In this document: piece by piece, positions 458-20,080 of the stretch
How the letters are laid out: every line of letters begins with the position of its first letter
How positions within the stretch are numbered: the first letter of the stretch is position 1
Source: a filamentous cyanobacterium CCP2
GTDB taxonomy: Bacteria > Cyanobacteriota > Cyanobacteriia > Elainellales > Elainellaceae
DNA: 46,565 nt
NCBI GenBank assembly: GCA_003003615.1
Contig: PVWD01000013.1
Coordinates: 1-46,565, forward strand
Reading direction: 5' to 3'
Program-made: the position numbers and the translations under genes
Notes under the pieces: generated by a model
The model's database searches: none
Told to the model about the DNA's origin: nothing
Seen by the model: the letters and a program-made list of their open reading frames with translations, nothing else

Positions 458-2686
458 ATGAACCGTAATAAGATTGTTGCTCTCTATCGTCAGCGCATTG
501 AGAGTGGGGAACGCATTAAATTATCCTCCAAGGAACGATCGTTTCTAGTTCAAGATTTTGTCCAAAAACTTCAGGGAATAAATGACCCAATCGCAATTAG
601 GGAGATGTGTCGTGATGAGATTACGCTGTTGGAGGAAGGGTATGGCCAAGGCAGTAATAGTACGACAAATTATCTTAGCAGGTATCGTTCGGCAATTACT
701 CAGGCAGTAGAACAGGGGATACTACTGTTGACGGAGAAGACAAAAGCAAGATTTGTGGGACATAAACAAGGGACGGGGGAAGCTTTTGAGGCAACGAATC
801 ATCTAGCGTGGAGCCTGATGCGTTATGACAATGCGGTTTATGCTCGAAACCGCCGGGCAACTAATGTGGGAAATAATCGGAGACAAGATGATCCGCAGCC
901 GTTTGTTCCCGATCGCTTTTTGGAGAAGGCACGCGAACTATTGGAAGCAACTGAAGCAGAAACACTGGCAGTGGGAATTGCAGCTTTGACAGGGAGACGA
1001 CATACGGAGGTGGCAGTTTCTGGTCAGTTTACTCTGACAAAACACCCTTATTTACTCGCTTTCGATGGGCAATTGAAGAAGGATACTCCGGTTGCTTATC
1101 CGATCGTGTCACTCATTCCGGCGGAAGCCGTTATGGAGGCGATCGATCGCTTTCGGACAATGCCGCAGATACGTGAGTTGCAGGGGCTTACTAGTGTGGA
1201 TCAACTAGTGGTTAATTTTAGAGCTAGGGTCAATTCTAGGGTGAAATTGCATTTTCAGAAAACGGGAATTCTGCCGCTTCTACCCGGTTTCCAAAGTGTT
1301 TCGATTCATCGTCTTAGAGCAGCATATGCACGCTTGGCAATCTATTTTTGGTTGCCGAATCAGGGGATGAATGAGCAACGATTTTTACAGTTTTATTTGG
1401 GGCATGTGGAGGCAAGCCAGATGGACGATGCACCCAACTCAAATGCAACGACTCATTATTTTGGCTATCGGTTGGTGGATGAATCAGGAAAACCAATTTC
1501 TGCTTCTGGCATTAAGTTAATGAGCTATCCGCCTCTTCCGAGACCCTCTCTTCAGCAAGTAGAGGAGCAATTGCAGTTTAACGAGGTGTTGAAGGCGATG
1601 GCACCTGATGTGGGTGAGGAGGATCAAAGTATGAATGTACCAGATACAGGTGGTGAGGAGATTGGAGAACGAGAGAAGGGGGAGGCGATGTTACCCAATC
1701 CAGCAATTGTTGATAATTTGCCCGCTAAGCCCAAAACACCTGCGAAGAATCGATATAAGGAAGTTACGGTCAATCTTAATACACTCTTGACTGCCGCTGA
1801 TGCTTTAGGGTTGCACTTACTGAAGGGAAAGGGGAGAGGGTATCAACTGTTGCTGCAACAAGTGCTTGAGGTAATTGGAAAACGACAGCACAACCAATCC
1901 CTTAGAAGGGAGGAAAATCAGGAGGAAATATCTGGACGATCGCTCGTGCAGGATGAGGAAGATAGGGATAAGTTAGTTCAGAAGATGGATGAGTTGTCCC
2001 AACAAATGACGGTTCTCAGTCAACACGTTCAAAATACTCAGGTAGAACGTGAGTCAGTATCGCTCTTGGCAAACGAAGTTACCTCCCTCCGAAAGCAACT
2101 TCAACAACTGATAGAGGAACGTGACTCGCTTCAGTCTCAGGTTGAGCGGTTGCTGCCGCTTCAGCAAGAAGGGCAAAGGCTCAAACAGGAGTTGCAATTA
2201 GCTCGCGATCGCCTGAATCAATTTCTCCATTTGGCCCAGGGGGCGGCTTCTGAGATGGCACCAGATTCTCAGAATCAGAAGCCGGAGGGTTCGCTTTCTC
2301 CATCAAACGACATTCCAGAGAATGCGCTAAAGGAAAGGGATGAAGGGACATTCAAGTCGAAATCTCATGATGTTTCTGCTAAGCTCTCTCCCGACGATCG
2401 CATTCCGATTGCCATTGATGCTCTCATCCGCTTTAACCAATCTTGCTCTGATATTGCTGAACGATGGTTCATTAGTACTAATGTTATTGCGATGGCCTCT
2501 GCGACCAATCCCGCAACGAAGGTTAAACCCTGGTTGGAATTGCACCCGGAGGTCGCTCGTCTGGTGCAGCAGCACAATCAAGCCATGGAGACAGATAGAC
2601 CCCATCATAATCGGGGCAAGGATAAAACTGAATTGCGTTCGATCGTTGATGCGTTTACGGAGGGGAGTCAAACGCAGCATCAATGA
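458..2686 (+). CDS. Telomere resolvase (protelomerase)-like protein
   Basis: Members of this family cut a palindromic double-stranded target and rejoin the strands as covalently closed hairpins, using tyrosine-recombinase-like chemistry. By eye the region from about 170 to 340 follows phage TelK. ALTGRRHTEV (catalytic Arg181) and the GQLKKD hairpin (Lys207) come first. IHRLRAAYARLA follows, with Arg287 and His284 where TelK has Lys. LGH (His316) and a THY with the candidate nucleophile Tyr334 complete the set. Residues about 1-150 are helical and may bind DNA. Residues about 500-625 are a long Q/E/L-rich coiled coil, and 660-715 form a further small domain. At 742 residues it is longer than TelK. 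No clear Shine-Dalgarno precedes the ATG. Whether it resolves telomeres or has another recombinase role cannot be told from sequence. Confidence 0.85.
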   Translation: MNRNKIVALYRQRIESGERIKLSSKERSFLVQDFVQKLQGINDPIAIREMCRDEITLLEEGYGQGSNSTTNYLSRYRSAITQAVEQGILLLTEKTKARFVGHKQGTGEAFEATNHLAWSLMRYDNAVYARNRRATNVGNNRRQDDPQPFVPDRFLEKARELLEATEAETLAVGIAALTGRRHTEVAVSGQFTLTKHPYLLAFDGQLKKDTPVAYPIVSLIPAEAVMEAIDRFRTMPQIRELQGLTSVDQLVVNFRARVNSRVKLHFQKTGILPLLPGFQSVSIHRLRAAYARLAIYFWLPNQGMNEQRFLQFYLGHVEASQMDDAPNSNATTHYFGYRLVDESGKPISASGIKLMSYPPLPRPSLQQVEEQLQFNEVLKAMAPDVGEEDQSMNVPDTGGEEIGEREKGEAMLPNPAIVDNLPAKPKTPAKNRYKEVTVNLNTLLTAADALGLHLLKGKGRGYQLLLQQVLEVIGKRQHNQSLRREENQEEISGRSLVQDEEDRDKLVQKMDELSQQMTVLSQHVQNTQVERESVSLLANEVTSLRKQLQQLIEERDSLQSQVERLLPLQQEGQRLKQELQLARDRLNQFLHLAQGAASEMAPDSQNQKPEGSLSPSNDIPENALKERDEGTFKSKSHDVSAKLSPDDRIPIAIDALIRFNQSCSDIAERWFISTNVIAMASATNPATKVKPWLELHPEVARLVQQHNQAMETDRPHHNRGKDKTELRSIVDAFTEGSQTQHQ

Positions 2687-2688: not shown

Positions 2689-2706
2689 TATATACATATG
2701 TATATA
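2689..2706. repeat. Perfect 18-bp AT palindrome
   Basis: TATATACATATGTATATA is fully self-complementary around the central CATATG and starts two bases after the stop codon of the resolvase-like gene. It lies in the 60-bp gap between two convergent genes. It has no T-tract and is too weak to be a classic terminator. It resembles in composition the short AT palindromes at hairpin-telomere resolution sites, but no sequence identity with a known site is claimed. Confidence 0.65.
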
Positions 2707-2746
2707 ACCACGGAACCTTGAACTCCTTTCCCCTACCATACCCTCC

Positions 2747-3721
2747 CTACAATCCATTTCCTACAATCGTGCAAAAGCGATCACGGCCTTCCTGTTTGGC
2801 TTGATAAAGTGCTTGATCGGCTAGGGTCACTAGGTTTACCATTTCTGCTTCGATGCTTGCTTCTATTGTTGCAACTCCTGCACTAATCGTAATATGCCCT
2901 TTTTGTGAACTCTCGTGGGGAATCGCTAAGCTTCTTACCCGTTCACAGATTCTCTTGGCTACAGTAGCCGCTCCATTCCCGTCGGTCTCAGGCATTAAAA
3001 TCACAAACTCTTCTCCTCCATATCGCGCTGCTAAATCTCCCGACCGATGGACGACGCTGGAAATTAACTGGGCAACTTGCTGGAGACATCGATCCCCTGC
3101 TGGGTGTCCATAGGTATCGTTATATAGCTTGAAATGGTCAATATCACACAAAATCAGGGATAAATATACTGAACTTCTGCCCCCAGTGCAAAGCTGCATT
3201 CGACGAATTCTCCCTTGTTCTTGCGCTATATATTCATCAAAGCGACGACGATTAGCAATTTGGGTTAACCCATCCATGGATGCCATTCTTTGCAAGTCAC
3301 GGTTGGCTGCCTCTAACTCCCGCTGAAGCTGCGTTTGCTCAATTAGCCGCCGTACCCGTTGCCGCAATACCGCCCAGTGTATCGGCTTCGTTACATAATC
3401 AACCGCTCCAACTTCATACGCTCGATCCACCGATTCTTGATCATTTAACCCAGTAATCATCAATATTGGCGTAGTTTGACCGTTTGGAAGCGATTGTAAT
3501 TCGGCACAACACTCGAAGCCATTCGTCTCCGGCATCAAGGCATCCAGTAATACAATATCTGGCTGTTGCTCAAAAGCTGCCAATGCTGCTTTGCCATCCT
3601 GCGCTTCTACAATGCGATACCCCTCCCGCTCTAGCAGTAGCCGAAGCTGCATCCGAACAAAAGGATCATCATCAACAATTAAAATCAGGGGAGCTTTATT
3701 CTGAGATATCGTGGTGTTCAT
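2747..3721 (-). CDS. Response regulator with GGDEF diguanylate cyclase output
   Basis: The 324-residue protein has an N-terminal receiver domain (about 11-125): acidic pocket Asp17-19, phosphoacceptor Asp60 in VLLDALMP, Thr90 and Lys112. After a short coiled coil comes a GGDEF domain (about 150-318) with the active-site sequence GGEEF at 235-239. Five residues before it lies RSGD (226-229), the product-inhibition I-site. It should therefore make cyclic di-GMP from two GTP when phosphorylated by a partner kinase, with feedback inhibition. No kinase gene is adjacent. The gene converges on the resolvase-like gene. The start codon has only a weak ribosome site (CAAGAAG directly before ATG). Confidence 0.92.
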   Translation of the reverse strand: MNTTISQNKAPLILIVDDDPFVRMQLRLLLEREGYRIVEAQDGKAALAAFEQQPDIVLLDALMPETNGFECCAELQSLPNGQTTPILMITGLNDQESVDRAYEVGAVDYVTKPIHWAVLRQRVRRLIEQTQLQRELEAANRDLQRMASMDGLTQIANRRRFDEYIAQEQGRIRRMQLCTGGRSSVYLSLILCDIDHFKLYNDTYGHPAGDRCLQQVAQLISSVVHRSGDLAARYGGEEFVILMPETDGNGAATVAKRICERVRSLAIPHESSQKGHITISAGVATIEASIEAEMVNLVTLADQALYQAKQEGRDRFCTIVGNGL

Positions 3722-3848
3722 CTTCTTGATTAACAGCTACTCTACCAGCTTTAACAGGACATTCAACGTGAGGATTGCCACCCACTGCTTCTGCTAGATT
3801 ACCCTCACGTCCACCCACTTCTAACGCTTTGTATCGCTCTGCTAGAGG
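3696..3848 (-). pseudogene. Open 48-codon gene fragment, no start codon
   Basis: Reading leftward, the frame between stops at 3849-3851 and 3696-3698 encodes a protein-like stretch beginning LAERYKALEVGGREGN and containing VGGNPHVECPVKAGRVAV. It has no ATG and overlaps the first bases of the GGDEF regulator in another frame. The composition looks like a real protein tail, so it may be the C-terminal remnant of a gene that once preceded the regulator. I do not recognise the family. Confidence 0.3.
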
Positions 3849-3892
3849 TTAAAAGCTGTACTGTTGCCAACCCATTCCTCAAATGCGATCAG

Positions 3893-3938
3893 TCCTTAAC
3901 TTCTCTGTATGGACTTTCATCGTTATAAATTCTATAAA
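3893..3938 (+). promoter_or_regulatory. Shared-type promoter of the RCC reductase gene (copy A)
   Basis: An upstream element TCCTTAACTTCTCTGTAT runs directly into a -35-like TGGACT. A 17-bp spacer follows, then a -10 TATAAA at 3933-3938. The start codon is about 80 bp downstream. The same element, at the same spacing, precedes three genes near 32 kb. The upstream half abuts the -35 box, which is where an activator would bind. Confidence 0.7.
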
Positions 3939-4019
3939 AAGAACAGAGCAACGGCATTCATCAAACGTTGTTAAAAACCGTCTTCTCTCAATTGTCCCAT
4001 CTTTTCGTCTGTTGTTTAA

Positions 4020-4784
4020 ATGGTGATGAATCCACAAACTCCGTCTGATCACAATATTTTGTTTAACCGATCGCAAGAGATTTTAAGCGACCTATATCAA
4101 AAAATTGATGATCGTTTAGCGTTACAACCACAACCCGTCCATCAACCCTTTCAAAGTTTTGCCAGTCCTGATGGCAGTTTCACTGGCAGCCTTCAAACGT
4201 TGATTGGAACAAACATTGACTGGTTAATTCATTCATCAATCAATGTTCCCAGTAGAGCATTCGGCACGATGCGGCTCACCGCTTGGCTAGAGCCATACAT
4301 TCAAGTTCCACATCTTGCCTTTGAGTTTGGGTTATTCTCTTCGCAATTACTTTTCTATATTGATTACATTCCTCGCGTTGATTTATGGACTCACCCGGAA
4401 TATGTTGAACAGTATTATAAACCCGTTGAACCCACCTATCTTCAGTTGCGAGATCATCCCAATCTAACTTTATTCGTCAGCAAGGGATTTTATGTGCGAC
4501 AGGTGCAATCTCCCACTCATCTCTGTTTTACTTGTCCAACAACTAATGATTCCTTTTCTCTACTGCAAGCCGTTGCTCATGAGATGTGTGATCGTTGGTT
4601 AGACTGGGTTGAACAAGCCAGTCCTGTAGCAATAGAAAAACAGGCAGACTTGGCAAAGCGCGATCGACAAATGCGACAAATTACAGCAGAACGTGATCCT
4701 GGAAATGCAATGGTTGAAAAGAGTTTGGGAGCTGAAATAGCGGGTCAAATCGTGCGATCGCTCTGGGACAAAACGGTAAATTAG
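4020..4784 (+). CDS. Red chlorophyll catabolite reductase-like protein
   Basis: RCC reductase is a ferredoxin-dependent bilin-reductase-fold enzyme; in plants it reduces the open-chain product of pheophorbide a oxygenase. The 254-residue product aligns by eye with plant RCCR: a WLIHSSINVPS segment, a pattern of beta strands ending in YIDYIPRVDLWTHPEYVEQYY (plant: LDLPHRKDL..NPDYLKEYY), and a C-terminal LAKRDRQMRQITAERD...GAEIAGQIV. The length fits a mature RCCR without a transit peptide. ATG 4020 or the ATG at 4026 may be used. It is monocistronic and driven by the shared promoter element at 3893-3938. Related bilin reductases of the FDBR family are an alternative, but the tail motif favours RCCR. 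Confidence 0.82.
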   Translation: MVMNPQTPSDHNILFNRSQEILSDLYQKIDDRLALQPQPVHQPFQSFASPDGSFTGSLQTLIGTNIDWLIHSSINVPSRAFGTMRLTAWLEPYIQVPHLAFEFGLFSSQLLFYIDYIPRVDLWTHPEYVEQYYKPVEPTYLQLRDHPNLTLFVSKGFYVRQVQSPTHLCFTCPTTNDSFSLLQAVAHEMCDRWLDWVEQASPVAIEKQADLAKRDRQMRQITAERDPGNAMVEKSLGAEIAGQIVRSLWDKTVN

Positions 4785-4805
4785 AACAGCTTTACAGGGG
4801 TTTAG

Positions 4806-5168
4806 TTATAAACTTTGCTGTCTTAGGTCATCTTGACGTTGCCGCGATTCCTGTTGTCGCTGCCTCATGCGTTCTTGTATCTGTTCTTGGTTTTGTTGCC
4901 ATCGTTGCTGTTGCCGATCCCAGAGGTCTTGCTGTCGCTGCCGTTGTTCCTGTAGGCGTTCTTGCTGCTGTTGCCGTAGGTTTTCTTGCCGTCGCCTTTC
5001 TTGCTCACGCTGTTGGGAAGGAATTATTTCATCTGAAAACTGCTTTTGAGACATTGCCTCAGTCATGCTTGCTGCACGATTTGTTAGTGGAACAACAAAC
5101 AGAAAGATGGCTGATAGAAGGAGACAAAATAGCTCTAGCCTTAGGAGCCGACTCAACAGATTTAACAT
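4806..5168 (-). CDS. Small exported Gln/Arg-rich coiled-coil protein
   Basis: The start at 5168 is chosen because GGGAG lies 8 bases before it; an in-frame ATG at 5207 lacks a ribosome site. The 120-residue product begins with a hydrophobic stretch (about 8-27) followed by NRAAS, consistent with a signal peptide or membrane anchor. The rest, from about 50 on, is almost entirely Gln, Arg and Glu in a helical pattern without hydrophobic core. It is not recognised as a known family. It converges on the RCC reductase gene with a gap of about 20 bp. Such tails are often low-complexity periplasmic helices. Confidence 0.6.
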   Translation of the reverse strand: MLNLLSRLLRLELFCLLLSAIFLFVVPLTNRAASMTEAMSQKQFSDEIIPSQQREQERRRQENLRQQQQERLQEQRQRQQDLWDRQQQRWQQNQEQIQERMRQRQQESRQRQDDLRQQSL

Positions 5169-5234
5169 ATCATGCTCTCCCTGAACTGTGAATGAACGAT
5201 CATCCATAAGTCCACTGTAGCGAAGACAGAAAGT

Positions 5235-7538
5235 TTAGATCTCCCTCTTTGCGATCTTCTTCATCGGGTTTGTGCCTTGAACCTCTTTTTCGTGTAAGTA
5301 ACGGTGAATCGCATGATCCAAGGTAGGCAGCAGCGTAGCTCGTTCACTTCCCAGCACACTATAAACTGGACGAGGTGCGATCCATCCCAAAGATTCATTA
5401 GGATGAGCCTGAACGTGTGCCGCATTCAGCCCAGCTTGTTTAGCAGTGAATCGGGCTAATTCAGCCCAAGTCGTCGCTCCCACATTGGCTAAATGCCAGA
5501 TGCCACACTCTCCATCAATCAACAGATCAAGAGTGACATTGACTAAATCGGGAACGTAGGTAGGAGAAACGGTGGTATCTTCGGTAGTCCTAAATGTCTC
5601 TCCGGCGGATAAAGTTAGCAAGGCGATCGTCAGAAAATTGTGCTGATCCCAAGGGCCAAAAAAGGCACTAGTGCGAATCACCAGCGAATAGGGATGTACA
5701 GCTAAGACCCATTCCTCCGACCTGGCTTTACTATGTCCGTAAACATTGAGGGGTGATACAGGGCTACTTTCCAAATAAGGTGTATTGTGACTGCCATCGA
5801 ACACAAGATCTGACGAGAATGTAACCAGGGCAATCTCTCGATGCAGACAGGCTTTTGCTAACACTGCGGCTCCCTCTGCATTGGTTGACCAGCACACATA
5901 AGGCTCTCGCTCTGCATCATCCACGCGCACGTATCCCGCCGCATTGATTACTGCCCAGGGATTCAGTTCTGACAGCATGTTGTGTACGGATACGCTGTTT
6001 GTAATATCCATTGCTTTGCGAGAGGCAAGCACATAGGGAATTCCTCGAACAGCGCAAATGCGAGCAAAGGCTTGCCCCAAAGTTCCAGTTGCCCCTGTAA
6101 TCAGGAGGGGTCTGGAAGGGGAAATAGTAGGTAAAGAGGAAACGGACGAGAGTAGACGGTGATGAATCGTGCGAGAGCGTTGCTTTATGTGTGTTTGGCT
6201 CTCCAGCTTTGCATCTTGTTGAGCGTAGCTAACTGGCGGATGCAGAAATCGATCGTCCCGTTGCCACCATCCGGGCACAGCCAAAAGCGGGTGCGGATAA
6301 GGTTGATTCTGGGATAAGTAACGAATCATCTCAGCCAGGGCAGTCGATCGAGGAGTGGGCGATCGTAAATCAAACACACCTGGCTCATAGAAGCCATTTG
6401 AGCGAGTCACCAGACTATTCCAATCATAGGCACCTAGCAGTGACCAAACCGTTACAGCCCGAACCGCTATGCCATCCTGTCGCACACTCTGCGCCGCATC
6501 CCAGACTTCTTGCAACCAGCGCAACTGTTCCTCGCGGGTACAGCCTAAGTGAACTTCTGTCACTGCGATCGGTAACTGATAGCGATTCCAGGTTTCATGC
6601 AGTAGGTCTTCAGGACTGGTTTTTCCCTCTACACAGACTCGCACTGCCGCCACATCTGCATAGTTGTGTTTGCCATTGCCCCCATGCGTATCAACCGGAT
6701 ACCACTCTAAACGCTCATCTAGAAACCGATCGCTTGTGATGTAGTGATTAACACCAACAATATCAGGGGGACAGGGATGCTCCAGAAACCATTCCAATTC
6801 TGCGGATTCAATTCCTGCTTGTTGCAAGTAATTCCACAGTGGATGACGGGCATCTACACGCCCGCAGAGGAGATCGAACGATAACCAACGGCGATGGTTT
6901 TCAAACTCGGCTTGATAGGCAAGCAGCGGCGTGCTGAATGTTTTGCCCAAGTCTTCGGTTTGCACCAGTTGGGCAGTGGCATTTACCTGGCGAATAGCTT
7001 GCATGGAGCAGATGATGGCTCTGCACTGGGCGAGTAGGGCGCGAATAAAGATAAAATCCTCTCGTCCATGCGGATACCAATGCCCATATAAGCCGCTGAA
7101 TCGTGCTGTTGTCAGGGGTTCATTGACGGGTGTGTAGTGGGTGATCCACGGATACCGGTGGGCAACAGCATCAGCAAATTCAGCCAGTTTTTCTGGAAAG
7201 GCAGGATCAACCAGACTGGTGTAGCCAGGGCCACTACCATGATGGATCAGTCCAACGATCGGACGAATTTCCAACTCTCGTAACCGTTCCAATCGCTGAT
7301 CTGCCCATGTCCAATCGGCTTGTTCTAACCCGTTTGGGGCAATGCGTTCCCATAGGATTGGATAACGTAAAGCCTGAATCCCCAACATCGCAAACCGATC
7401 GAGGTCTTCTAGCCGAGCCGCATGACCATTCCACTCCAACTGGTCGAAGTATTCGTCTCCAACTCGGTTGACGGTGCATTCTATTCCTCCCCAAAGTTCC
7501 AATGGTGGAGGAGCGATCGGTTCTTTGTTTGTCACCAT
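5235..7538 (-). CDS. GH1-like glycosidase fused to RmlD-like reductase (copy 1)
   Basis: The N-terminal half (about 15-430) is a TIM-barrel glycosidase of family GH1 type. HYTPVNEP supplies the acid/base Glu, and ITEVHLG is at the position of the nucleophile TENG motif. The C-terminal part (from about 480) is an extended short-chain dehydrogenase like dTDP-4-dehydrorhamnose reductase, with GATGTLG for the nucleotide, a FSSDLVFDG strand and YGHSK as the YxxxK pair. A GTG start at 7562 would add eight residues; ATG 7538 matches the paralog better. It follows the glycosyltransferase-mutase gene closely and is probably co-transcribed. The paralog at 10978-13227 has the same architecture. A role in building or trimming a deoxysugar/galactose-containing glycan is inferred. 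Confidence 0.85.
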   Translation of the reverse strand: MVTNKEPIAPPPLELWGGIECTVNRVGDEYFDQLEWNGHAARLEDLDRFAMLGIQALRYPILWERIAPNGLEQADWTWADQRLERLRELEIRPIVGLIHHGSGPGYTSLVDPAFPEKLAEFADAVAHRYPWITHYTPVNEPLTTARFSGLYGHWYPHGREDFIFIRALLAQCRAIICSMQAIRQVNATAQLVQTEDLGKTFSTPLLAYQAEFENHRRWLSFDLLCGRVDARHPLWNYLQQAGIESAELEWFLEHPCPPDIVGVNHYITSDRFLDERLEWYPVDTHGGNGKHNYADVAAVRVCVEGKTSPEDLLHETWNRYQLPIAVTEVHLGCTREEQLRWLQEVWDAAQSVRQDGIAVRAVTVWSLLGAYDWNSLVTRSNGFYEPGVFDLRSPTPRSTALAEMIRYLSQNQPYPHPLLAVPGWWQRDDRFLHPPVSYAQQDAKLESQTHIKQRSRTIHHRLLSSVSSLPTISPSRPLLITGATGTLGQAFARICAVRGIPYVLASRKAMDITNSVSVHNMLSELNPWAVINAAGYVRVDDAEREPYVCWSTNAEGAAVLAKACLHREIALVTFSSDLVFDGSHNTPYLESSPVSPLNVYGHSKARSEEWVLAVHPYSLVIRTSAFFGPWDQHNFLTIALLTLSAGETFRTTEDTTVSPTYVPDLVNVTLDLLIDGECGIWHLANVGATTWAELARFTAKQAGLNAAHVQAHPNESLGWIAPRPVYSVLGSERATLLPTLDHAIHRYLHEKEVQGTNPMKKIAKREI

Positions 7539-7585
7539 TTTGTCACCATAGAGTCTCTGCACCTCTCACTAGCAAGTTGCATTTG

Positions 7586-10072
7586 TCAAACTTTTGTCAA
7601 CTGTGCCTTGCTAGCAATCTGTTTGTAAACCATCAGTGCCTGTGCAACACATTGATCCATGTTGTAATACTTATAGGTTGCTAGTCGTCCTACAAAGTAC
7701 ACGCCAGGAGTGGCATCAGCTAAGGCTTTGTACTGTTTGTAAAGCTCGGTGTTTTCAGAGCGAGGAACAGGATAATAGGGATCGCCTTCTGCCTTCGGAA
7801 ATTCATAAACAATGCTGGTTTTATGATGTTCCTGTCCAGTTAAATACTTGAACTCCGTCACACGCGTATAGAGGTGTTCATTTGGGTAATTAATGACAGG
7901 AGCCGATTGATAGACAGCAGTATGATGAGTTTCATGTTTGAATTCCAGCGATCGATACGGCAATTTCCCATAGCGATACTCAAAGAATTCATCGATCGGG
8001 CCTGAATAAACCATTTCACGGCAGGGAATACCATTCACAACTTCACGATAATCCGTATTCAGCATTACCTTAATGTTGGGATGTGATAACATGTTTTCAA
8101 ACATGGCTGTAAATCCGTACAGCGGCATCGCCTGATAGGTATCGGTAAAGTAGCGATCGTCGCGATTGGTGCGGGTAGGAATGCGAGCAATCACCGATTT
8201 ATCTAGCTCTGAAGGGTCGAGTCCCCATTGTTTGCGCGTATAGCCGCGAAAGAACTTTTCATACAGCACCCGTCCCACTTTACTGACTACAACATCTTCC
8301 GAGGTGAGAATATGATCCTTGGGTTCTGCCAACGATTTGAGAAAATCTTCTACCTCAAAGGAGTTAAGGTTTAGTCCATACAAGGTGTTAATGGTGTCCA
8401 GGTTAATCGGAATGGGAACCAACTGACCATCCACGCTCGCCCGCACTCGATGTTCATAGGATCGCCATTCGGTGAACTGCGACAGGTGCTCAAACACATC
8501 ACGGGAATTGGTATGGAAAATATGTGGCCCATACCGATGCACCAAAACTCCTGCCTTGTCGTGATGGTCATAAGCATTACCGCCAATATGACTGCGGCGA
8601 TCGACCACCAGCACTTTTTTACCTAACTGGCTGGCTAGTCGTTCCGCAATCACGCTGCCCGAAAACCCTGCGCCGACTACCAGATAGTCAAACAAATACT
8701 CACGGGTGACAACTCCCGGTGCTTGTCCTGCCCCAAGGGATGCAGAGTGCTTGCCGTTGGCATAGGATTGCTGTTTGGCAGCGATCGACTCTTCAATCAG
8801 CTTTAGCATGGATGTCCAAGTGCGATCCCAGGAAATCTGCTCCAGAAAAGCATCGACTCGGCTGAGCCAACCCGAAGCCTGGAGATCCATCTGCATGGCA
8901 ATATCAGCCGCCACTACAAACTCTGATACTGTATCGGCAATATGCACCATGCCTTGCTGCCCGTAGGGACGTACCACATCCCGAATGGAAGTGGAGACAA
9001 CAGGTTTTCCAGCCGCCAGGTATTCTGGCGTTTTGGTTGGGCTAATGAATCGAGTAGAATCATTGCGGGCAAAGGGCAGCATCGCCAGCTCCCATCCAGC
9101 TAAATAGACAGGTAGCTCTTGATAATCTTTTGCGCCTAAGTAATGAATGTTATCGCGTTGTGGCAGGCTCTCAGAATCAATTTTGACCACAGGCCCAATT
9201 ATCACCAGATGCCAATCGGGGCGGGCATCAGCAATTCCTACCAGCAGTTCCAAGTCCATTCGCTCATCAATCACACCAAAGAATCCCAAACGCGGGTGAG
9301 GAATATCAATCTGATCGGCAGGGTCGGTCGTCAAAGCTCTAGCCTGGGCAAAGTGGGCAACATCAACGCTGCTGGGGAAAGCGTAAACGCTGGGATGCTG
9401 ATCCTGCTTGGCTTCGTACAGGCTTTGTCCACCTGTAAATACTAAATCAGCCTGCTCAAATAATTCTGCTTCTCGCTGCTTTAGCACAGGGGATGCGTTC
9501 TTAAATGCCGATAATTCATCCATACAGTCATACACTGCTGCCAGTGGCTTAAGATGCTGACTGAAGCCGATCGCCATAGGTGTGTAATACCAGCAGATGT
9601 AGTGCTGAATGTTATGTTCTAACAGCAGGTGATCCAGGAGTGTTTTTTGTATCTTACCAGTGGCTACATCGCTTAAATTTTCAGGTAAATGTGGTACAAC
9701 AACCCAAAGATTTCCAGTTGGATTACTGACCTGTAAATGAGCTGAAATGTTAGGTTGAACGATCGGTTCTTCCACAAAGAATACTCGTTTTGCTTGTGCA
9801 CAGCGAGTCAATAGATGTTGGGGACGCTGATAAACAAAATTCCAGCGCAAATGGGATAGACAAATGACATCGGCAAAGTCTGTAGCCGAACGATTAAATT
9901 CATTTGGGCGGGTGATGAACTGGGCGTTAGAAATATGCAGAGGATCAGATGAACGAGGATGAGTAGGCACTAAATCTTGAGCAATGCTTGCATATTGGGT
10001 AGATTCTCGGCTACCAAGTGACAGAGTATCGCGACCATTGCTCTGTTGAAAATGAGGTGGACGATCAGCCAT
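7586..10072 (-). CDS. glf: Glycosyltransferase-UDP-galactopyranose mutase fusion
   Basis: Residues about 65-430 form a GT-B-like glycosyltransferase, with LSHLRWNFVYQRPQHLL near the start and SPTKTPEYLAAGKPVV as the donor-binding helix region. From about 459 to the end is a full-length UDP-galactopyranose mutase: FAD-binding VVGAGFSG (467-472), IGGNAYD, RYGPHIFHT, and FRGYTRKQWGLDP. The mutase, an FAD flavoenzyme active in the reduced state, interconverts UDP-galactopyranose and UDP-galactofuranose. The fused transferase may hand the sugar to a glycan. The gene heads a minus-strand pair with the GH1-RmlD fusion and faces a 905-bp divergent intergenic region. The symbol applies to the mutase half only. 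Confidence 0.9.
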   Translation of the reverse strand: MADRPPHFQQSNGRDTLSLGSRESTQYASIAQDLVPTHPRSSDPLHISNAQFITRPNEFNRSATDFADVICLSHLRWNFVYQRPQHLLTRCAQAKRVFFVEEPIVQPNISAHLQVSNPTGNLWVVVPHLPENLSDVATGKIQKTLLDHLLLEHNIQHYICWYYTPMAIGFSQHLKPLAAVYDCMDELSAFKNASPVLKQREAELFEQADLVFTGGQSLYEAKQDQHPSVYAFPSSVDVAHFAQARALTTDPADQIDIPHPRLGFFGVIDERMDLELLVGIADARPDWHLVIIGPVVKIDSESLPQRDNIHYLGAKDYQELPVYLAGWELAMLPFARNDSTRFISPTKTPEYLAAGKPVVSTSIRDVVRPYGQQGMVHIADTVSEFVVAADIAMQMDLQASGWLSRVDAFLEQISWDRTWTSMLKLIEESIAAKQQSYANGKHSASLGAGQAPGVVTREYLFDYLVVGAGFSGSVIAERLASQLGKKVLVVDRRSHIGGNAYDHHDKAGVLVHRYGPHIFHTNSRDVFEHLSQFTEWRSYEHRVRASVDGQLVPIPINLDTINTLYGLNLNSFEVEDFLKSLAEPKDHILTSEDVVVSKVGRVLYEKFFRGYTRKQWGLDPSELDKSVIARIPTRTNRDDRYFTDTYQAMPLYGFTAMFENMLSHPNIKVMLNTDYREVVNGIPCREMVYSGPIDEFFEYRYGKLPYRSLEFKHETHHTAVYQSAPVINYPNEHLYTRVTEFKYLTGQEHHKTSIVYEFPKAEGDPYYPVPRSENTELYKQYKALADATPGVYFVGRLATYKYYNMDQCVAQALMVYKQIASKAQLTKV

Positions 10073-10190
10073 AGTATTTGTTGCACTCCCGATTTTTCTA
10101 AGTTAAATGTTCAAAAATTACATCTTTACAAAGCGAGAGCTAAATAAGTCTAGTTGAGACTAAACAAACGACCCAAGCTGTAATTTATGA

Positions 10191-10394
10191 AAGTGCGAAG
10201 GGAACCTGTTTGAATTTTTAGGTCAGTTATCAAGAAGATTTGGTGGGTTTGTCACAAAGGAGACAATTCAAAAACAGTTTAAGCTTGGCTACTCTCGTTC
10301 ACTCTATGAAACTCGATCGGATACTGTTTTAGCTTCTACCTTAAGAGAAGAAGACAAACAATACCTCTACGTCTTTGCGGTTAAAACATTGTAA
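10191..10394 (+). pseudogene. 67-codon open frame without start codon
   Basis: Between a TGA at 10188 and a TAA at 10392 lies a frame with protein-like composition, including FEFLGQLSRRFGGFVTKE and EEDKQYLYVFAVKTL. It has no in-frame ATG or GTG and no ribosome site, so it is more likely a decayed gene end than an active gene. I do not recognise the family. Confidence 0.25.
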
Positions 10395-10865
10395 AGTGCT
10401 GTGGTGCATATTTCTTTTAAATGTATCGGTTTCAACAACTGAAGTTAATCTTTATTTCCACTACGGGATGGAAAATAGCAGCACATCAGGAATTTGAGGT
10501 TGGTGTTTAGCTAAATCGATTATTTACTATGGCGGAATCAATTCATAAACGTGAGAGGCTTAGAGCGTAGCTTAAACAATCACGCTTCCGTAGATAGAGG
10601 TGCGAGTCAACTGCGATCGGTTAATTATAGATAGGGTGCAATGCAGCAGAAGCAATCTGATATCACAAAGAGATGCATTAAAAGAGATGTAATAAAGATC
10701 GATTAGATGAACTCAACTTTAAAGCAGCAATCATCTGATAATTTCTATAAAATTAACCGCTAGAGCGTTAAAGTGATGCCCGAAGTTCTTAACTTACCCA
10801 AACTTTTATCTACCACTGATTTTTACCAACTGATTCATGAATAAATCAATAATTAACCACCAATT

Positions 10866-10920
10866 AATTACCAATAAATTACCAATAAACTACCAATAAA
10901 TTACCAATGAATTACCAACA
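10866..10920 (+). repeat. Five tandem 11-bp iterons
   Basis: Five consecutive copies of AATTACCAATA occur without spacers; copies 3, 4 and 5 each differ from the first by a single base. A degenerate copy precedes them at about 10851. The period is close to one helical turn, so a protein would see the copies on one face of the DNA. They end 57 bp before the start codon of the second GH1-RmlD fusion, as expected for a regulator-binding array. Confidence 0.75.
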
Positions 10921-10977
10921 TATGAAACGGTGCATCACGATGTGGAAGAACGCAGCATTTAGCAAAGTGAGAGTTTA

Positions 10978-13227
10978 ATGAATTCAACACAAATGATGCC
11001 ACCGTTGGCGGTGTGGGGCGGAATTGAGTGTACGGTCAACCGAATCAGAGACCAATATTTTGACCAACTGGAATGGAATGGACATGCCTCTCGCATAAAC
11101 GACTTGGCGCAGTTTGCTTCTCTTGGGGTAGAAGCAATTCGTTATCCCGTGCTATGGGAACGTATTGCACCGAATGGATTGGAACAGGCAAACTGGTCAT
11201 GGACAGATGAGCGATTAGCCATGCTGGATGATCTGGGCGTTCGTCCGATCGCCGGTTTGGTACATCATGGCAGCGGCCCTCGCGATACCAGCCTGATTGA
11301 TCCGGCATTTCCAGAGAAATTGGCAAAATTTGCTGATGCTGTTGCCCAACGATATCCCTGGATCAGCCATTACACTCCTGTAAACGAGCCGCTCACCACA
11401 GCACGGTTCAGCGGACTGTATGGTCATTGGTATCCCCATGAACAAGATGATTTCATGTTTGCAAAAGCACTGATTCACGAGTGTCGGGCAACGGTGCTGT
11501 CAATGCAGGCGATTCGGCAGATCAATCCTCAGGCTCAACTGGTGCAGACCGAAGATTTAGGCAAAACTTTCAGCACTCCCCTGCTGTCCTATCAGGCGCA
11601 GTTGGAAAACGATCGCCGCTGGCTGTCGCTCGATTTGCTCTGTGGTCGGGTGAACTCTGAGCATCCTCTCTGGAGCTATTTACTTAATGCAGGCGTTGAG
11701 GAAGCCGAATTATTGTGGTTCCAAGATCATCCCTGCCCTCCTGATATCATCGGCATCAACCGCTATGTTTGTGGCGATCGCTTTATTGATGAACGGCTCG
11801 ATCGCTATCCTCCGCACACCCATGGCGGCAACGGCAAGCACCAGTATGCCGATGTGGAAGCGGTGTGGGTCTGTGCCGATGGCATTTATGATCATGCTGC
11901 TCTACTGAAGGAAGTATGGCAACGCTATCAGCAACCGATCGCCATCACGGAAGCCCATTTAGGCTGCACCCGCGAGGAACAGTTGCGCTGGCTGAAGGAA
12001 ATTTGGCAGGTGGCTGAAGCAGTGCGGAATGAAGGAGTAGACTTACAAGCTGTCACCGTCTGGTCACTGTTGGGAACCTATGATTGGAATAGCCTGGTGA
12101 CTCGCGCTGACGGGTTCTATGAACCAGGGGTATTTGATGTGCGCTCTGCGGTGCCTCGACCAACTGCAATTGCCACAATGGTGCAATCGTTGGCAGCAGG
12201 ACAAGAATATACCCATCCATTCTTGGAGCTACCCGGATGGTGGCAGCGATCGCAGCGGCTCCTTTATCCACCTGTAATTTACTCACAGGCATCGGGTGGA
12301 TGGATTGATGCAGACCCCACCGTAGTTGTCCGATCGCCGCAGATGAAGCGTGTAGGCAGCACAAACCATTCTTCTGGTGTTTCCCCTCCGCCATTATTGA
12401 TTGCAGGAGCAACGGGCACGCTGGGACAGTCCTTCGCTCGCCTCTGTGAAATTCGGGGGATTCCTTATCACCTATTATCCCGACAGGAGATGGACATTAC
12501 CGATGCAACGGCTGTGGGGCAAACGCTGACGGAACTGCAACCCTGGGCGGTGATCAATGCAGCAGGATATGTGCGAGTCGATGATGCCGAGCGAGAACCA
12601 CATCTGTGTCATCGCATCAATGCAGAAGGAGCCACGATTCTAGCGAAAGCTTGCGCCGATCGGGACATTGCAATGGCAAAGTTCTCCTCTGATCTGGTGT
12701 TTGATGGCAATCGCACTGACCCCTACAGGGAAAGTCACGCCGTTGCGCCCCTGAATGTCTACGGACAGAGTAAGGCAATCGCTGAACAACAGGTGTTAAC
12801 GGCTCATCCCGATGCCCTGGTCATTCGCACCAGTGCTTTCTTTAGCCCGTGGGATGACTATAATTTTTTGACGATTGCCCTGCGTACCTTAGCAGCAAAA
12901 CAGCCCTTTATCGCGGCAGCAGATGCAGTGGTTTCCCCGACCTATGTCCCCGATCTGGTGAATGTCACCCTAGACTTGTTGATTGATGGAGAATCAGGGC
13001 TGTGGCATCTAGCCAATGCGGGAGCGATCGCCTGGGCTGATCTGGCAAGAGAGGTTGCCGTCTTAGCAGGATTGGATCACACCTACATTCATGCTCGTCC
13101 CGCTAGAGAACTGAATTGGGTTGCGCCTCGTCCTGCTTACAGTGCATTGACGAGTGAGCGAGGAGTACTGTTGCCGTCATTGGATAAGGCGATCGGTCGT
13201 TACCTTGATGAACGGATCTGTGGATAA
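10978..13227 (+). CDS. GH1-like glycosidase fused to RmlD-like reductase (copy 2)
   Basis: This 749-residue paralog of the 5235-7538 gene has a GH1-like barrel (about 10-430) with acid/base Glu137 in TPVNEP and candidate nucleophile Glu325 in ITEAHLG. The RmlD-like reductase follows at about 472-745, with GATGTLG 477-483, Ser570-571 and Tyr595/Lys599. The two copies agree almost residue for residue through the barrel; they differ mainly in the linker (about 432-470). Glycosidase and reductase on one chain suggests a step in which a sugar unit is removed or transferred and a nucleotide sugar reduced, but the substrate is unknown. The start follows GTGAGAG and the iteron array. Being divergent from the mutase fusion it may be separately regulated. 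Confidence 0.85.
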   Translation: MNSTQMMPPLAVWGGIECTVNRIRDQYFDQLEWNGHASRINDLAQFASLGVEAIRYPVLWERIAPNGLEQANWSWTDERLAMLDDLGVRPIAGLVHHGSGPRDTSLIDPAFPEKLAKFADAVAQRYPWISHYTPVNEPLTTARFSGLYGHWYPHEQDDFMFAKALIHECRATVLSMQAIRQINPQAQLVQTEDLGKTFSTPLLSYQAQLENDRRWLSLDLLCGRVNSEHPLWSYLLNAGVEEAELLWFQDHPCPPDIIGINRYVCGDRFIDERLDRYPPHTHGGNGKHQYADVEAVWVCADGIYDHAALLKEVWQRYQQPIAITEAHLGCTREEQLRWLKEIWQVAEAVRNEGVDLQAVTVWSLLGTYDWNSLVTRADGFYEPGVFDVRSAVPRPTAIATMVQSLAAGQEYTHPFLELPGWWQRSQRLLYPPVIYSQASGGWIDADPTVVVRSPQMKRVGSTNHSSGVSPPPLLIAGATGTLGQSFARLCEIRGIPYHLLSRQEMDITDATAVGQTLTELQPWAVINAAGYVRVDDAEREPHLCHRINAEGATILAKACADRDIAMAKFSSDLVFDGNRTDPYRESHAVAPLNVYGQSKAIAEQQVLTAHPDALVIRTSAFFSPWDDYNFLTIALRTLAAKQPFIAAADAVVSPTYVPDLVNVTLDLLIDGESGLWHLANAGAIAWADLAREVAVLAGLDHTYIHARPARELNWVAPRPAYSALTSERGVLLPSLDKAIGRYLDERICG

Positions 13228-13377
13228 CCAGTTGTAATTTCGACACCCACTTCACCTTTGCCCAAACCCTAGAGGCAAGAGTACCCTCAAGGGGAATTTT
13301 ACAGGAGGGTTCATCCTGGTAGTCTCGAATAGATGAATCAAATTAGCTTAGATATTGACTTAAAATGCGAGAAAACG

Positions 13378-13401
13378 ATCGTGTTACCAATCGTGTTACC
13401 A
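13378..13401 (+). repeat. Two tandem copies of a 12-bp unit
   Basis: ATCGTGTTACCA occurs twice in direct succession 30 bp before the patatin-like gene. The TTACCAAT core resembles that of the 11-bp iterons upstream of 10978. It may be a regulator site; the two copies alone are weak evidence. Confidence 0.4.
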
Positions 13402-13430
13402 ATTCCTACATCCTTGATTAAGGTAAAAGC

Positions 13431-15674
13431 ATGAAAACAGCAACTTCAAGCAGCTTCACTAATCAAGTTTCTAAATTTATAGAAAATTGGATCGAACCAC
13501 CTGTTCAATTTTTCATCCGCCTAAGAGTGCAGACGGCGATCGTCTTAGCAGTATTGTTAATTTTTACGCAAGCAGGGCAAACGATCGAAATTTATCGGGC
13601 GATCGCTTTAGATTACAACATATATCAGGCGATTGTAGCGACAATTTTTGTGTTTGTCCTAAGTATTTTTGTTTGGTATACCTCTCGTTTTTTAGTACTA
13701 GAACAATTCGCTATTAAAGATAATCAATACAAAAACTTCTTAGCCCAGTGGGGCCCAAGGGGTTTAGGAATTGTTCCCATGCTTGGACTCAGTTTTGGCG
13801 TTTTGGCAGCCTGGAAGCAATCAATTGATGAAGAATCTAAGGCTTTCCTGCTCACTTGGATGATTTGTAGCTTGGGTGCTGCGGTTTTTGCCTTAATCCT
13901 ATTTGTTAGTCGTACTGCTTTATTTAATGAAGACCGCGCTTTAGGTGCGAAATCTCAAGGGGAAGGTTTATTTAGCCCAGAGGTTGAAATAGGACTTGCC
14001 AACATTGCCTACCTTATCTTTGCTGCTTTTTCTTTGCCTCTGGTATTTGCTGCTACAGATGCAAAGTTTTCTTTGGGAATCATCGCTATCTTTGCTCTGT
14101 CTCCACTGATCAACCTAGTTCTCTATTCCTGGTATTCAGCAAGGGAAATAAACTTAAGACGGAAAATCATTATTTGGTTTATTCCTTGCCTATTGGGGTC
14201 TGCAATTTTTGGATTTACTCTACCTCCCACTGCCGTTCCCAGTGCAGTTGGGTCAATTGGTGTAGTTGCGATCGCCTTTACAATTCTCGTCGTAATTTTC
14301 TCAACTATCTATAATTGGGCACTTGAAAATAATATTCCAGCCTTAACCTTTCTGGTGGGTTTAATGTTTTTTTCCAGCTTATTAAACCTCAATGACAATC
14401 ATCAGTTTAGGCAGACTGTAAAACCGCAGGCTGTTCCACTACCCGCTTTAGAAGATAGCTTTAAGTCGTGGCTAGCCAACCGACCCGATCGCGATCAATA
14501 TGTCGGGAAACCCTATCCGGTTTATCTGGTTTCTGCTCAAGGGGGTGGAATCTATGCGGCATACCATGCAGCAACGGCCCTAACAAAATTAACTGAATCG
14601 ATGCCAAATTTTCCCCAACATATTTTTGCCATCAGTGGTGTTTCTGGGGGTAGTTTAGGGGCTTCAACCTTTTCTAGTTTGATTAAGGAAAGTAATCATA
14701 TCAATCAGTCTTTAAGCGAGGCAGTAAGCCAAATTTTTGATCAAGATTTACTTTCTCCCTTACTGACCCTGGGCTTATTTCCTGACCTGACTCAGCGATT
14801 TATTCCCTTTTCTATTTATGATTGGGATCGAGCCAATGGATTAGAAGTTGCCTTTGAAAATGCTTGGAATCGTTTACCCAAACAAGAAGAAAGCGAAAAT
14901 CCTTTTAAGCGATCGTTCTATCAACATTGGCAACCTGAAGAAATTGCGCCTGCCTTGGTTCTCAACACAACAGTTGTTGAAAATGGCAAACGCTTAGCAT
15001 TTAGTCCCTTTAAGATCGTGTTGCCCACTCAGGAAAACATTGTCCTGGATGAAAGGGGTTTAGATGTCAAGTTGAGTACGGTCGCTGGGCTAAGTGCCCG
15101 GTTCCCTTTTGTCTCACCAGTAGGTTGGTACAAACGCAGCAGTGACGGCAGTAAATCCCGCTTGGCGGACGGAGGATATTTTGATAATTCGGGAATTCCA
15201 ACCGCCATTGATATGGGTCGAACCTTGCAGAAGCTAGAGGGGTACGGGAAAACCTTTAAGCTGGTTTATCTGGCGATCGTTGATCAGCAGGATAGTTCTG
15301 TTGAACCGCCCAACTCTTCTGGGCTAAATGAGATTTTATCACCTGTTCAAACCTTATTTGGTGCCCGCGTTGCCCGCAGCCTCAGTGCGATCGAGTTATC
15401 GACTTACACTCTGAATGACGGTGTTACTGATCCGTTTCAGTTGAATTTTAGAACCCTCGTACTTCAGAAAGTCGATCCACAAATGCAGATCAATCTTCCC
15501 TTAGGCTGGCAACTCTCCATGACATCTAAGGAGTTCATTGCTGGACAAACGCCTGAGCCAAGCCGGTGTAATGTAGACAATTTCAAACAAGCCTTCAGCC
15601 GTAATATTTCAAGCACAGATGCGAAAAATCACAACAGTTGTGTTGCCAAATCCATTGAACTTGAGTTGAGCTAG
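13431..15674 (+). CDS. Membrane-anchored patatin-like phospholipase
   Basis: The first 320 residues contain about nine hydrophobic segments and form a membrane domain. The C-terminal part (about 345-650) is a patatin-like acyl hydrolase. It has the oxyanion-hole glycines 371-373 in AQGGGIYAAY, nucleophile Ser405 in GVSGGS and the catalytic Asp580 in DGGYFDNSG. Patatin enzymes use this Ser-Asp dyad to remove acyl chains from lipids. The membrane domain would place it at a bilayer, probably remodelling membrane lipids. It stands alone, with AAGGT before the ATG and 200-250 bp gaps to both neighbours. Confidence 0.88.
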   Translation: MKTATSSSFTNQVSKFIENWIEPPVQFFIRLRVQTAIVLAVLLIFTQAGQTIEIYRAIALDYNIYQAIVATIFVFVLSIFVWYTSRFLVLEQFAIKDNQYKNFLAQWGPRGLGIVPMLGLSFGVLAAWKQSIDEESKAFLLTWMICSLGAAVFALILFVSRTALFNEDRALGAKSQGEGLFSPEVEIGLANIAYLIFAAFSLPLVFAATDAKFSLGIIAIFALSPLINLVLYSWYSAREINLRRKIIIWFIPCLLGSAIFGFTLPPTAVPSAVGSIGVVAIAFTILVVIFSTIYNWALENNIPALTFLVGLMFFSSLLNLNDNHQFRQTVKPQAVPLPALEDSFKSWLANRPDRDQYVGKPYPVYLVSAQGGGIYAAYHAATALTKLTESMPNFPQHIFAISGVSGGSLGASTFSSLIKESNHINQSLSEAVSQIFDQDLLSPLLTLGLFPDLTQRFIPFSIYDWDRANGLEVAFENAWNRLPKQEESENPFKRSFYQHWQPEEIAPALVLNTTVVENGKRLAFSPFKIVLPTQENIVLDERGLDVKLSTVAGLSARFPFVSPVGWYKRSSDGSKSRLADGGYFDNSGIPTAIDMGRTLQKLEGYGKTFKLVYLAIVDQQDSSVEPPNSSGLNEILSPVQTLFGARVARSLSAIELSTYTLNDGVTDPFQLNFRTLVLQKVDPQMQINLPLGWQLSMTSKEFIAGQTPEPSRCNVDNFKQAFSRNISSTDAKNHNSCVAKSIELELS

Positions 15675-15926
15675 GGGGTTGTGTAGTGCCAGAGCCACAC
15701 TGGACACTAAGCCGTTGTTACGGTTCACCAAGAGTCTCAATGGAGTGGCGATACAAATTTGCATGGTACTAATTGCCTACCTGATTTTACAGTTGATAGA
15801 GATTCCAGCATTTTAGATGTTGAACTCATAACATTTAAAATCCTTCCTGGTAGGCTGCTTGACAGTTCCAGGAGTGCATTACCCACTATATGAGTTCTCA
15901 AGCCTTGAATTGGTAGGAGAACACGC

Positions 15927-18080: not shown

Positions 18081-18140
18081 GGGTTATGGATTGAATCAAA
18101 CTGAGTGTGCCTTGGAATACAGTTTGCTGTCACCACTCCC

Positions 18141-18159
18141 CATACTATGCCGTAGTATG
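18141..18159. promoter_or_regulatory. Inverted repeat before the nitrile hydratase locus
   Basis: CATACTA and TAGTATG are perfect 7-bp arms separated by TGCCG, in the gap between the molybdoenzyme and the cobW-type gene. No T tract follows, so an operator is as likely as a terminator hairpin. Confidence 0.4.
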
Positions 18160-18316
18160 AACTACTGAAAAGCTATGCAGATAAGCGGTTTTAGCAACAA
18201 TTACCGTTGGGATGAATGCTGCTGTCCTTCCCTTCATTTGCTAATCGGATAGTTGTTGGAATGCTTGCAAGAGTATGATTTGTCGTTCGTGTACAAAAGC
18301 TAGAGCGTTTTAAGCT

Positions 18317-19294: not shown

Positions 19295-19345
19295 ACATCT
19301 ATGCTCCAGAAGCTTCACGATACCGTTACTCAGATCATGTCCGAT

Positions 19346-19415
19346 CGGCAGGCAAGATGCCTGCGCTACTGTTCCTCAAATTATGTCTAACCGGCAGGCA
19401 AGATGCCTACGCTAC
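19346..19415. repeat. Two copies of a dispersed cyanobacterial repeat
   Basis: CGGCAGGCAAGATGCCT followed by GCGCTAC or ACGCTAC occurs twice, 46 bp apart. The core AGGCA-AGA-TGCCT is a small palindrome. A related GTGGGCATCTTGCCCAC-type sequence occurs twice between the hydratase alpha and activator genes. Cyanobacterial genomes often carry such dispersed palindromic repeats in intergenic DNA; no function is evident. Confidence 0.6.
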
Positions 19416-19518
19416 GGGGATCTCAATAAACAATTTTCTTGTGGGGTGGGTTATCTTACCTGCCCAGCCATAGCCAGGATTTAAGGTGATTCGCCCCATA
19501 CTGAGAGGAGATAACTTG

Positions 19519-20034
19519 ATGAAAAAGCTAGATGCCTACAGCGTTAGCATTGGTGTTCTAGGTGGCATTGATACTTACCTGACCGCAACGGTGATTCTTG
19601 TTCCGGTTTGGGTCACTTTTATTGCCTGGGCATCCTTCTTCATCCTGGGAGGTGGAAAAGCAGGGCTGGTTCAGAGCATTGTGTCTAACTTAACTGGCAT
19701 TCTCATTGCTTCGCTGACCCTGCTGGCGATCGCCCTCATCGGTGACAACGCTGTGGTTGCTGCGATCTGCGTCGGGATTGGCAGTGCTGCAATGGTGCAG
19801 GTTTCCAAAATTCCGATTCTCACTGCGATTCCTGCGATCGTTTGGGGATTTGCCTCTATGGTAGGCACTAGCGTGGCTACGGGAATGCCAATTACAACGG
19901 CTGGATTAAACAATCCGGGTATTGTTGCGGCCGCTGCCATGATTTTAGGAGGATTGTTCGGCTACCTGTCAGAACTTTGGGGGAATGCCATGACCCGTGA
20001 ACCAGTCACAGAACGCGATCGTACCCGCGTTTAG
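19519..20034 (+). CDS. DUF1097 (YcdZ-like) membrane protein
   Basis: The start at 19519 is preceded by GAGAGGAGATAACTTG, a good ribosome site; an upstream in-frame ATG at 19486 lacks one. The 171-residue product has five or six hydrophobic helices with Gly/Ala-rich faces and a short basic tail. It matches the DUF1097 family, whose Escherichia coli member is YcdZ, of unknown function. It sits between the CobW-type GTPase and the hydratase beta gene on the same strand. This raises the possibility of a transporter for metal, nitrile or amide; that is inference from position only. Confidence 0.7.
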   Translation: MKKLDAYSVSIGVLGGIDTYLTATVILVPVWVTFIAWASFFILGGGKAGLVQSIVSNLTGILIASLTLLAIALIGDNAVVAAICVGIGSAAMVQVSKIPILTAIPAIVWGFASMVGTSVATGMPITTAGLNNPGIVAAAAMILGGLFGYLSELWGNAMTREPVTERDRTRV

Positions 20035-20080
20035 ATTAATTTTATCCACATTGAAATGAATCTCTCATGGAATAACTCAG

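Follow-up and report, generated by a model that had tools for sequence, protein, structure and literature searches.

A predicted telomere resolvase gene next to a contig end in a filamentous cyanobacterium

Introduction

Hairpin-ended DNA is textbook knowledge for Borrelia, Agrobacterium and a few phages. The window analyzed here, the whole of a 46,565-bp contig (G000:C82) from the 528-contig, 6.95-Mb draft assembly of a filamentous cyanobacterium, opens with a reading frame predicted from its sequence to encode a telomere-resolvase-like protein, and this raises the question of whether the genome contains a linear replicon, a linear prophage or a re-used recombinase. Such a finding is of a kind already known: hairpin ends have been deduced from reads for the linear plasmids pNPM8-10 of Nostoc N6 (PMC5987646); a passage of the same paper, in whose text the word “telomere” is absent, cites a linear 429.7-kb chromosome in Cyanothece 51142; the paper on the Agrobacterium tumefaciens enzyme TelA mentions cyanobacteria in passing (PMC3558466); and NCBI annotates cyanobacterial plasmid proteins as “protelomerase family protein” or “telomere resolvase”. 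No study of this cyanobacterial resolvase family was found in the open-access literature, a coverage outside which most subscription journals lie.

Family assignment of the gene

458–2686, + strand: predicted telomere resolvase (protelomerase) gene, ATG start, 742 aa

A profile search against telomere resolvase models placed this frame far above the curated cutoff of the ResT/TelK catalytic domain model (Pfam PF16684, ResT-TelK_cat), with 155.5 bits against a cutoff of 27 (E 1.4e-45) over residues 151–337. In the reverse direction, a profile of the resolvase family matched the solved structures of TelA (1.6e-31), TelK (3.6e-27) and ResT (2.6e-10), while the Pfam scan of the window proteins gave no match to integrase families. 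Two PHROGs families of unknown function also match the frame (E 1e-18 and 7e-17). The score against the NCBIfam TelA model is far under that model's cutoff, indicating that the 742-aa protein is no close copy of a characterized enzyme. In the catalytic part, the gene and its closest relative, from FACHB-502 (L045), differ by 0.26, 0.19 and 0.56 at codon positions 1, 2 and 3, respectively, a sequence pattern as expected under purifying selection. By Pfam match, predicted fold and catalytic residues the product of this frame is classed as a telomere resolvase, and the original prediction is confirmed by the PF16684 match and by a fold nearest to those of TelA, TelK and ResT.

Catalytic residues, fold and domain layout

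458–892, + strand: N-terminal alpha-helical DNA-clamp region, residues 1–145 (Y128/R132), superposing on TelA from about residue 19
893–1507, + strand: catalytic domain, residues 146–350 (R181, K207, H284/R287, H316, Y334), from Pfam, structure superposition and profile alignment
1745–2242, + strand: long helical or coiled-coil stretch, residues ~430–595, from AlphaFold secondary structure and coiled-coil matches
2369–2683, + strand: C-terminal all-helical domain, residues ~638–742, from the relatives' alignment and a model of the domain alone

The five catalytic residues picked out beforehand (Arg181, Lys207, Arg287, His316 and Tyr334) were all correct. They occur in the order Arg, Lys, Arg, His, Tyr, pair in the profile alignment with TelA R255, K286, R366, H394 and Y405, and are conserved in a 26-member alignment (R181, R287 and Y334 in 26/26, K207 in 25/26 and H316 in 24/26). 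The two words taken as TelK-like are both present, ALTGRR at residues 176–181 and AAYARLA at 288–294, and the TelK alignment contains the corresponding “GRR” and “AxYAR”. His284 pairs with TelA Tyr363, a difference from that enzyme and also from ResT, which has a tyrosine at this position (PMC3558466).

Hairpin formation by TelA depends on Tyr201 and Arg205, which are needed to fold the hairpin and dispensable for cutting; conservation of residues of this type between systems is not strong (PMC3558466). In the profile alignment, which is of moderate reliability in this stretch, Y128 and R132 of the window protein pair with Tyr201 and Arg205. Y128 is kept in 21 of the 26 relatives, while R132 is kept in only 10 of 26, most of the others having D, A or K. 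The pairing is suggestive only as a hint, at the sequence level, of a hairpin-specific function.

An AlphaFold model of the protein (mean pLDDT 78.5, with values of ~90 or higher over most of residues 1–350) superposes on TelA with a Z score of 24.5 (2.4 Å over 278 residues, 21% identity), on TelK with 18.4 and on ResT (PDB 8VS5) with 13.7 over 150 residues, the last comparison being on the catalytic domain only. Among ordinary recombinases XerA was best, with a Z score of 9.6 and a 16-Å rmsd, and Cre and lambda integrase gave ~7. This comparison had been named beforehand as one that might overturn the prediction; the predicted fold is nearer to the resolvases than to the tyrosine integrases. 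The closest likeness is to TelA (PDB 4E0G, 4DWP and others; PMC3558466), with which it shares the helical bundle followed by a catalytic domain. The two differ in length, TelA having 442 aa as against 742, and the window protein adds the coiled coil and the C-terminal domain. The likeness to TelK of phage PhiKO2 lies in the catalytic fold, while the extra C-terminal parts have no shown correspondence to the TelK stirrup; the TelN (N15) and PY54 enzymes are grouped with TelK.

The long coiled coil and extra C-terminal domain anticipated from the sequence are supported by the models. The coiled coil itself spans approximately residues 493–595, and the C-terminal domain, modeled alone, reached a pLDDT of 91.5 and recurs in the relatives' alignment. 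No clear PDB match for this domain was found among the 102 chains compared, a known fold still being possible; the best matches were weak (Z up to 4.3) and mostly helix-turn-helix regulators. The predicted structure is probably that of an extra DNA-binding module.

The contig end and the palindromes beside the gene

1–457, no strand: AT-rich (35% GC) non-coding segment from the contig end to the resolvase gene
361–403, no strand: 43-bp imperfect inverted repeat ACATTACACCTTGTATTTAATTTATACATATAAGGTGTAATGT, ~55 bp upstream of the start codon
2689–2706, no strand: 18-bp perfect palindrome TATATACATATGTATATA, directly after the stop codon

Between the gene and the contig end lie 457 bp, and transcription runs away from that end. 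TTATATGTA occurs three times in this segment (P 0.02). The segment matches nowhere else in the assembly, and for this reason the left end shows no obvious repeat break; the right end breaks within a repetitive gene that is also present on contig C165. We propose that bases 1–457 are a subtelomeric region. Neither a palindrome nor hairpin read-through was found at window position 1, the telomere itself not being in the window, and a search of the strain's genome returned no second end with similar sequence. Because the genome is a 528-contig draft, a contig end alone means little. Across the family, eight of the 16 genes on contigs longer than 10 kb, including that of the window, begin no more than 2.5 kb from the contig end upstream of them, where 1.65 are expected (P 2.8e-5, uniform placement assumed); several relatives sit mid-contig, far from any end.

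The palindromes near the gene, suggested earlier as possible substrates, are real sequence features, but they are without sign of being telomeres. A repeat like that at 361–403 was reached in one of 200 shuffles, and it is probably an operator and not a resolved telomere. Its identity as a telomere was ruled out because the sequence beyond it is no mirror image of the other side. A search for an operator motif common to the relatives yielded only the common HIP1 octamer GCGATCGC.

Relatives and the ends of their replicons

The resolvase family is sporadic, occurring in 15 of 386 genomes sampled from the phylum. In the tree, the window protein pairs with that of FACHB-502 (100/100) within a nine-row clade (98/91) that includes PCC 7428, G. 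dulcis, G. crepidinum and Crocosphaera. On FACHB-502 contig79 the gene lies 482 bp from the contig end in the same layout as in the window, and DNA synteny beside the resolvase was not found between the two, the FACHB-502 neighborhood being rich in transposons. The FACHB-502 contig end (L045, 1–290) is made up of a 95-bp unit repeated in tandem about three times, with TTGTATATATACAA in two of the copies; these are possibly subtelomeric repeats.

The NCBI-annotated homologues on plasmids of Gloeocapsa PCC 7428, Gloeocapsopsis dulcis, Gloeothece PCC 7424 and PCC 7822 are 35–45% identical to the window protein in the N-terminal half and similar in overall layout, and at least two of these plasmids have telomere-like inverted repeats; the window protein differs in belonging, with FACHB-502, to a separate two-member branch. 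Plasmid pGLO7428.02 of PCC 7428 (NC_020051.1; L139, L040), a 201,822-bp record deposited as linear, has 1,340-bp inverted terminal repeats that are 100% identical, and each begins with a 36-bp perfect palindrome, TACATTGTTATATTGGAATTCCAATATAACAATGTA, a ready telomere substrate. The G. dulcis plasmid (NZ_CP119970; L142) was deposited as circular. It contains a 3.5-kb palindrome whose 1,738-bp perfect arms meet at 211,060, with a core, TTATATTGGAATTCCAATATAA, that is the same as the PCC 7428 telomere core, although the flanks differ. Because this “circular” record holds a telomere palindrome, it is probably a mis-closed linear plasmid, with two telomeres joined by the assembler.

The hexamer TGTATA occurs 10 times in the PCC 7428 and G. 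dulcis repeats, against 1.6–1.9 expected. As a subterminal motif of the window it was rejected, its two occurrences in bases 1–457 against one expected not being significant. The telomere core TTGGAATTCCAA has a single match in the window's genome, inside contig C274 in an unremarkable context, which was judged to be chance.

Elsewhere in the family, an Oculatella contig ends in a 42-bp perfect palindrome upstream of the gene and a Crocosphaera contig in a 28-bp one. Three short contigs carry a resolvase between inverted terminal repeats: G078 C53 (22,857 bp; 740-bp repeats and 106-bp palindromes), G078 C59 (18,151 bp; 921-bp repeats and 38-bp palindromes; L029, L030 and L082 cover these two) and G127 C6 (L025; 18,309 bp; 260-bp repeats). 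Judging by these ends, they are small linear plasmids of 18–23 kb, two of them in one genome. At its terminus G078 C53 has AAATTAACGGAC, a motif already published as that of the hairpin ends in Nostoc N6 linear plasmids (PMC5987646). The window enzyme shares its clade with those of PCC 7428, G. dulcis and Crocosphaera and is only distantly related to those of G078 and G127. Nostoc N6 likewise differs from the window in having a distant resolvase, a protelomerase-family protein on pNPM10, and another telomere sequence. The PCC 7424 and PCC 7822 homologue records show no end signature.

Two further observations concern replicon ends. Short motifs, one per replicon end, are repeated within the terminal 0.4–1 kb of L030, L029, L056 and L084 (AACTTGTTA, TATACAAGA, CCTTATC and TGATATT), and are candidate binding sites of the resolvase or of an end-binding protein. 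The record of PCC 7822 plasmid Cy782202 (NC_014534.1, L042) contains, within positions 1–60, the GC-rich, polylinker-like CGAGCTCGCCGGCGGGCCCGTCC, perhaps a cloning-vector residue, and has no inverted repeat at its ends.

A candidate linear main chromosome

One relative lies on a 4,681,111-bp contig that makes up a genome listed as 100% complete (G027). Here (L022, C1:2103191-2123190) a 6.2-kb perfect palindrome with 3,079-bp arms and a single-base center at 2,113,190 carries an 876-aa resolvase-like gene in each arm, the arms being arranged head to head. By eye, the flanking genes include malic-enzyme-like and iron-uptake-like ones. All nine GC-skew samples taken between 3 kb and 1.95 Mb are positive; between 2.08 and 3.6 Mb most are negative, the one at 2.13 Mb being an exception, and beyond 3.9 Mb the values lie near zero, so that the palindrome lies near the skew switch and far from dnaA (a dnaA-like start at position 1, by eye). 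Since a stable 6-kb perfect palindrome would be unusual in a circular chromosome, the structure is likely to represent two telomeres joined by the assembler, which would make this contig a candidate linear main chromosome and allow the question of whether cyanobacteria have such chromosomes to be tested on strains or reads that already exist. That the family maintains linear replicons in many cyanobacterial lineages, including at least one main chromosome with a resolvase at each end, is a tentative generalization, which we regard as a serious possibility falling somewhat short of probable.

Two terminal palindromes, that at the L022 center and that at L084 1–29, have an odd single-base center. 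Known resolvases cut with a 6-bp stagger and are not expected to produce such a center, and the G027 palindrome differs in this respect from what they leave. These centers may reflect sequencing error or a different end chemistry.

Neighboring genes

20081–22873, no strand: nitrile hydratase beta and alpha genes with an ORF downstream of them, followed in the opposite orientation by an isochorismatase-family gene (cargo)
37104–43475, GalT, GalE and GH2 on the − strand: galactose genes GalT, GalE, GH43 and GH2 (cargo)

The resolvase gene had been described as lying among ordinary chromosomal genes. This is right only in part: its neighbors are metabolic cargo, not demonstrably chromosomal, and some are common to resolvase-bearing plasmids or contigs. 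On the G. dulcis resolvase plasmid, nitrile hydratase and accessory genes lie just before the isochorismatase gene, much as in the window. A megablast search of window positions 22000–46500 against 72,556 plasmids returned two records, one from Kovacikia and the other this same plasmid, matched in the isochorismatase gene (82.7%); positions 2750–22000 had no plasmid match. GH2 and GalT also occur on the Gloeocapsopsis crepidinum resolvase contig, with 77–79% identical protein. Judged by gene content, this shared cargo points to an accessory replicon.

The interval between the resolvase gene and this cargo contains an unusual fusion in two places (5235–7562 and 10978–13227), joining a family-1 glycosidase-like domain to an RmlD-type reductase; between the two, at 7586–10072, a glycosyltransferase is fused to a UDP-galactopyranose mutase.

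A model for the locus and its alternatives

Of the options raised at the outset, a linear replicon is best supported, as related genes lie on replicons with hairpin or inverted-terminal-repeat signatures. We consider it probable that a working resolvase maintains a linear accessory replicon with covalently closed hairpins and that the window is the first 46.5 kb from one end; the replicon is proposed to be a large plasmid or chromid. This reading is built on the observed family membership, catalytic residues and predicted fold, together with the end structures of the relatives. Replication through the hairpins would produce a palindromic junction at each end, to which two resolvase molecules would bind via their N-terminal helical and catalytic domains. 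Tyr334, aided by R181, K207, R287 and H316, would attack the DNA, both strands being cut a few bases apart near the center; the cut strands would then be folded back on themselves and resealed to give two hairpins, a step in which Y128, perhaps together with R132, would act as Tyr201/Arg205 do in TelA. The added coiled coil and C-terminal domain would probably serve to bind subterminal repeats or to keep the ends together. Catalysis, the linearity of the replicon, which sequence is the strain's telomere and what the extra domains do are parts of the model that we infer. If it is correct, a broad family of larger resolvases exists in cyanobacteria on linear accessory replicons that carry metabolic genes, and in at least one case a plasmid record deposited publicly as “circular” is probably wrong. 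Biochemical tests can start directly from the telomere sequences obtained here, TTATATTGGAATTCCAATATAA among them.

The same enzyme and mechanism could instead serve a linear main chromosome with hairpin telomeres, of which the window would be one end. The proteins scanned in the window include no recognized plasmid replication, partition, conjugation or transposase genes, the neighbors are metabolic, FACHB-502 homologues of some window genes sit on a 1.25-Mb contig, and the 4.68-Mb G027 contig has its resolvase in a 6.2-kb palindrome near the GC-skew switch. We nevertheless find a chromosome end unlikely: window positions 2700–22600 have no DNA match in the complete 5.5-Mb genome of a member of the same family (G011), the cargo is common to resolvase-bearing plasmids and contigs, and a gene found in 15 of 386 sampled genomes is sporadic. 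Less likely again is a circular replicon on which the gene was recently captured, is decaying or has another job, such as regulation or dimer resolution. In favor of this, a number of relatives are found at a distance from contig ends, the record with the PCC 7424 homologue was deposited as circular, and in G. crepidinum the C-terminal part of the protein is missing; the window gene, however, is full-length, with intact catalytic residues and a codon pattern of purifying selection, and several related replicons readable to their ends show inverted repeats or palindromes. One record deposited as circular, the G. dulcis plasmid, contains the telomere palindrome and so is probably linear.

A re-used recombinase is the weaker option. 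That the protein should be an ordinary tyrosine integrase or recombinase merely resembling telomere resolvases is very improbable. The catalytic fold and residues are common to tyrosine recombinases, and His284 at the TelA Tyr363 position is as in ordinary recombinases; against this stand the PF16684 match far over the cutoff, the Z score of 24.5 with TelA compared with 9.6 or less for the Xer, Cre and lambda integrases, and an alignment that continues through the TelA helical domain. Our preferred reading remains that of a working resolvase on a linear accessory replicon.

A second resolvase-like gene and distant matches

A linear prophage suits another contig of this genome better than it does the window, where Pfam scanning of the proteins recognized no phage structural or packaging genes, a further difference from TelK. 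Contig C107 (L023; 17,192 bp) encodes a 517-aa protein that matches PF16684 (E 5.1e-13) and is distant from that of the window. Its neighbors, named by eye, include a primase/helicase-like gene, a ParA-like gene and a small gene that is possibly terminase-like, and from this content the contig looks like a small plasmid or phage-plasmid. No palindrome was found at its ends. The left end is Nextera adapter sequence, likewise present at contig C120, indicating that some ends of the assembly are library artifacts.

Among viral contigs no relatives of the window resolvase were found, and phage records gave a single weak match, to Vibrio phage HY01. PF16684 also scores above its cutoff in the Synechococcus elongatus control genome, a match that may be a diverged recombinase. 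In Stenomitos frigidus (L066, ~3218–11668), an open frame of 2,800 residues has a part that resembles the window protein in its N-terminal 130 residues only, and this N-terminal domain may have been reused elsewhere.
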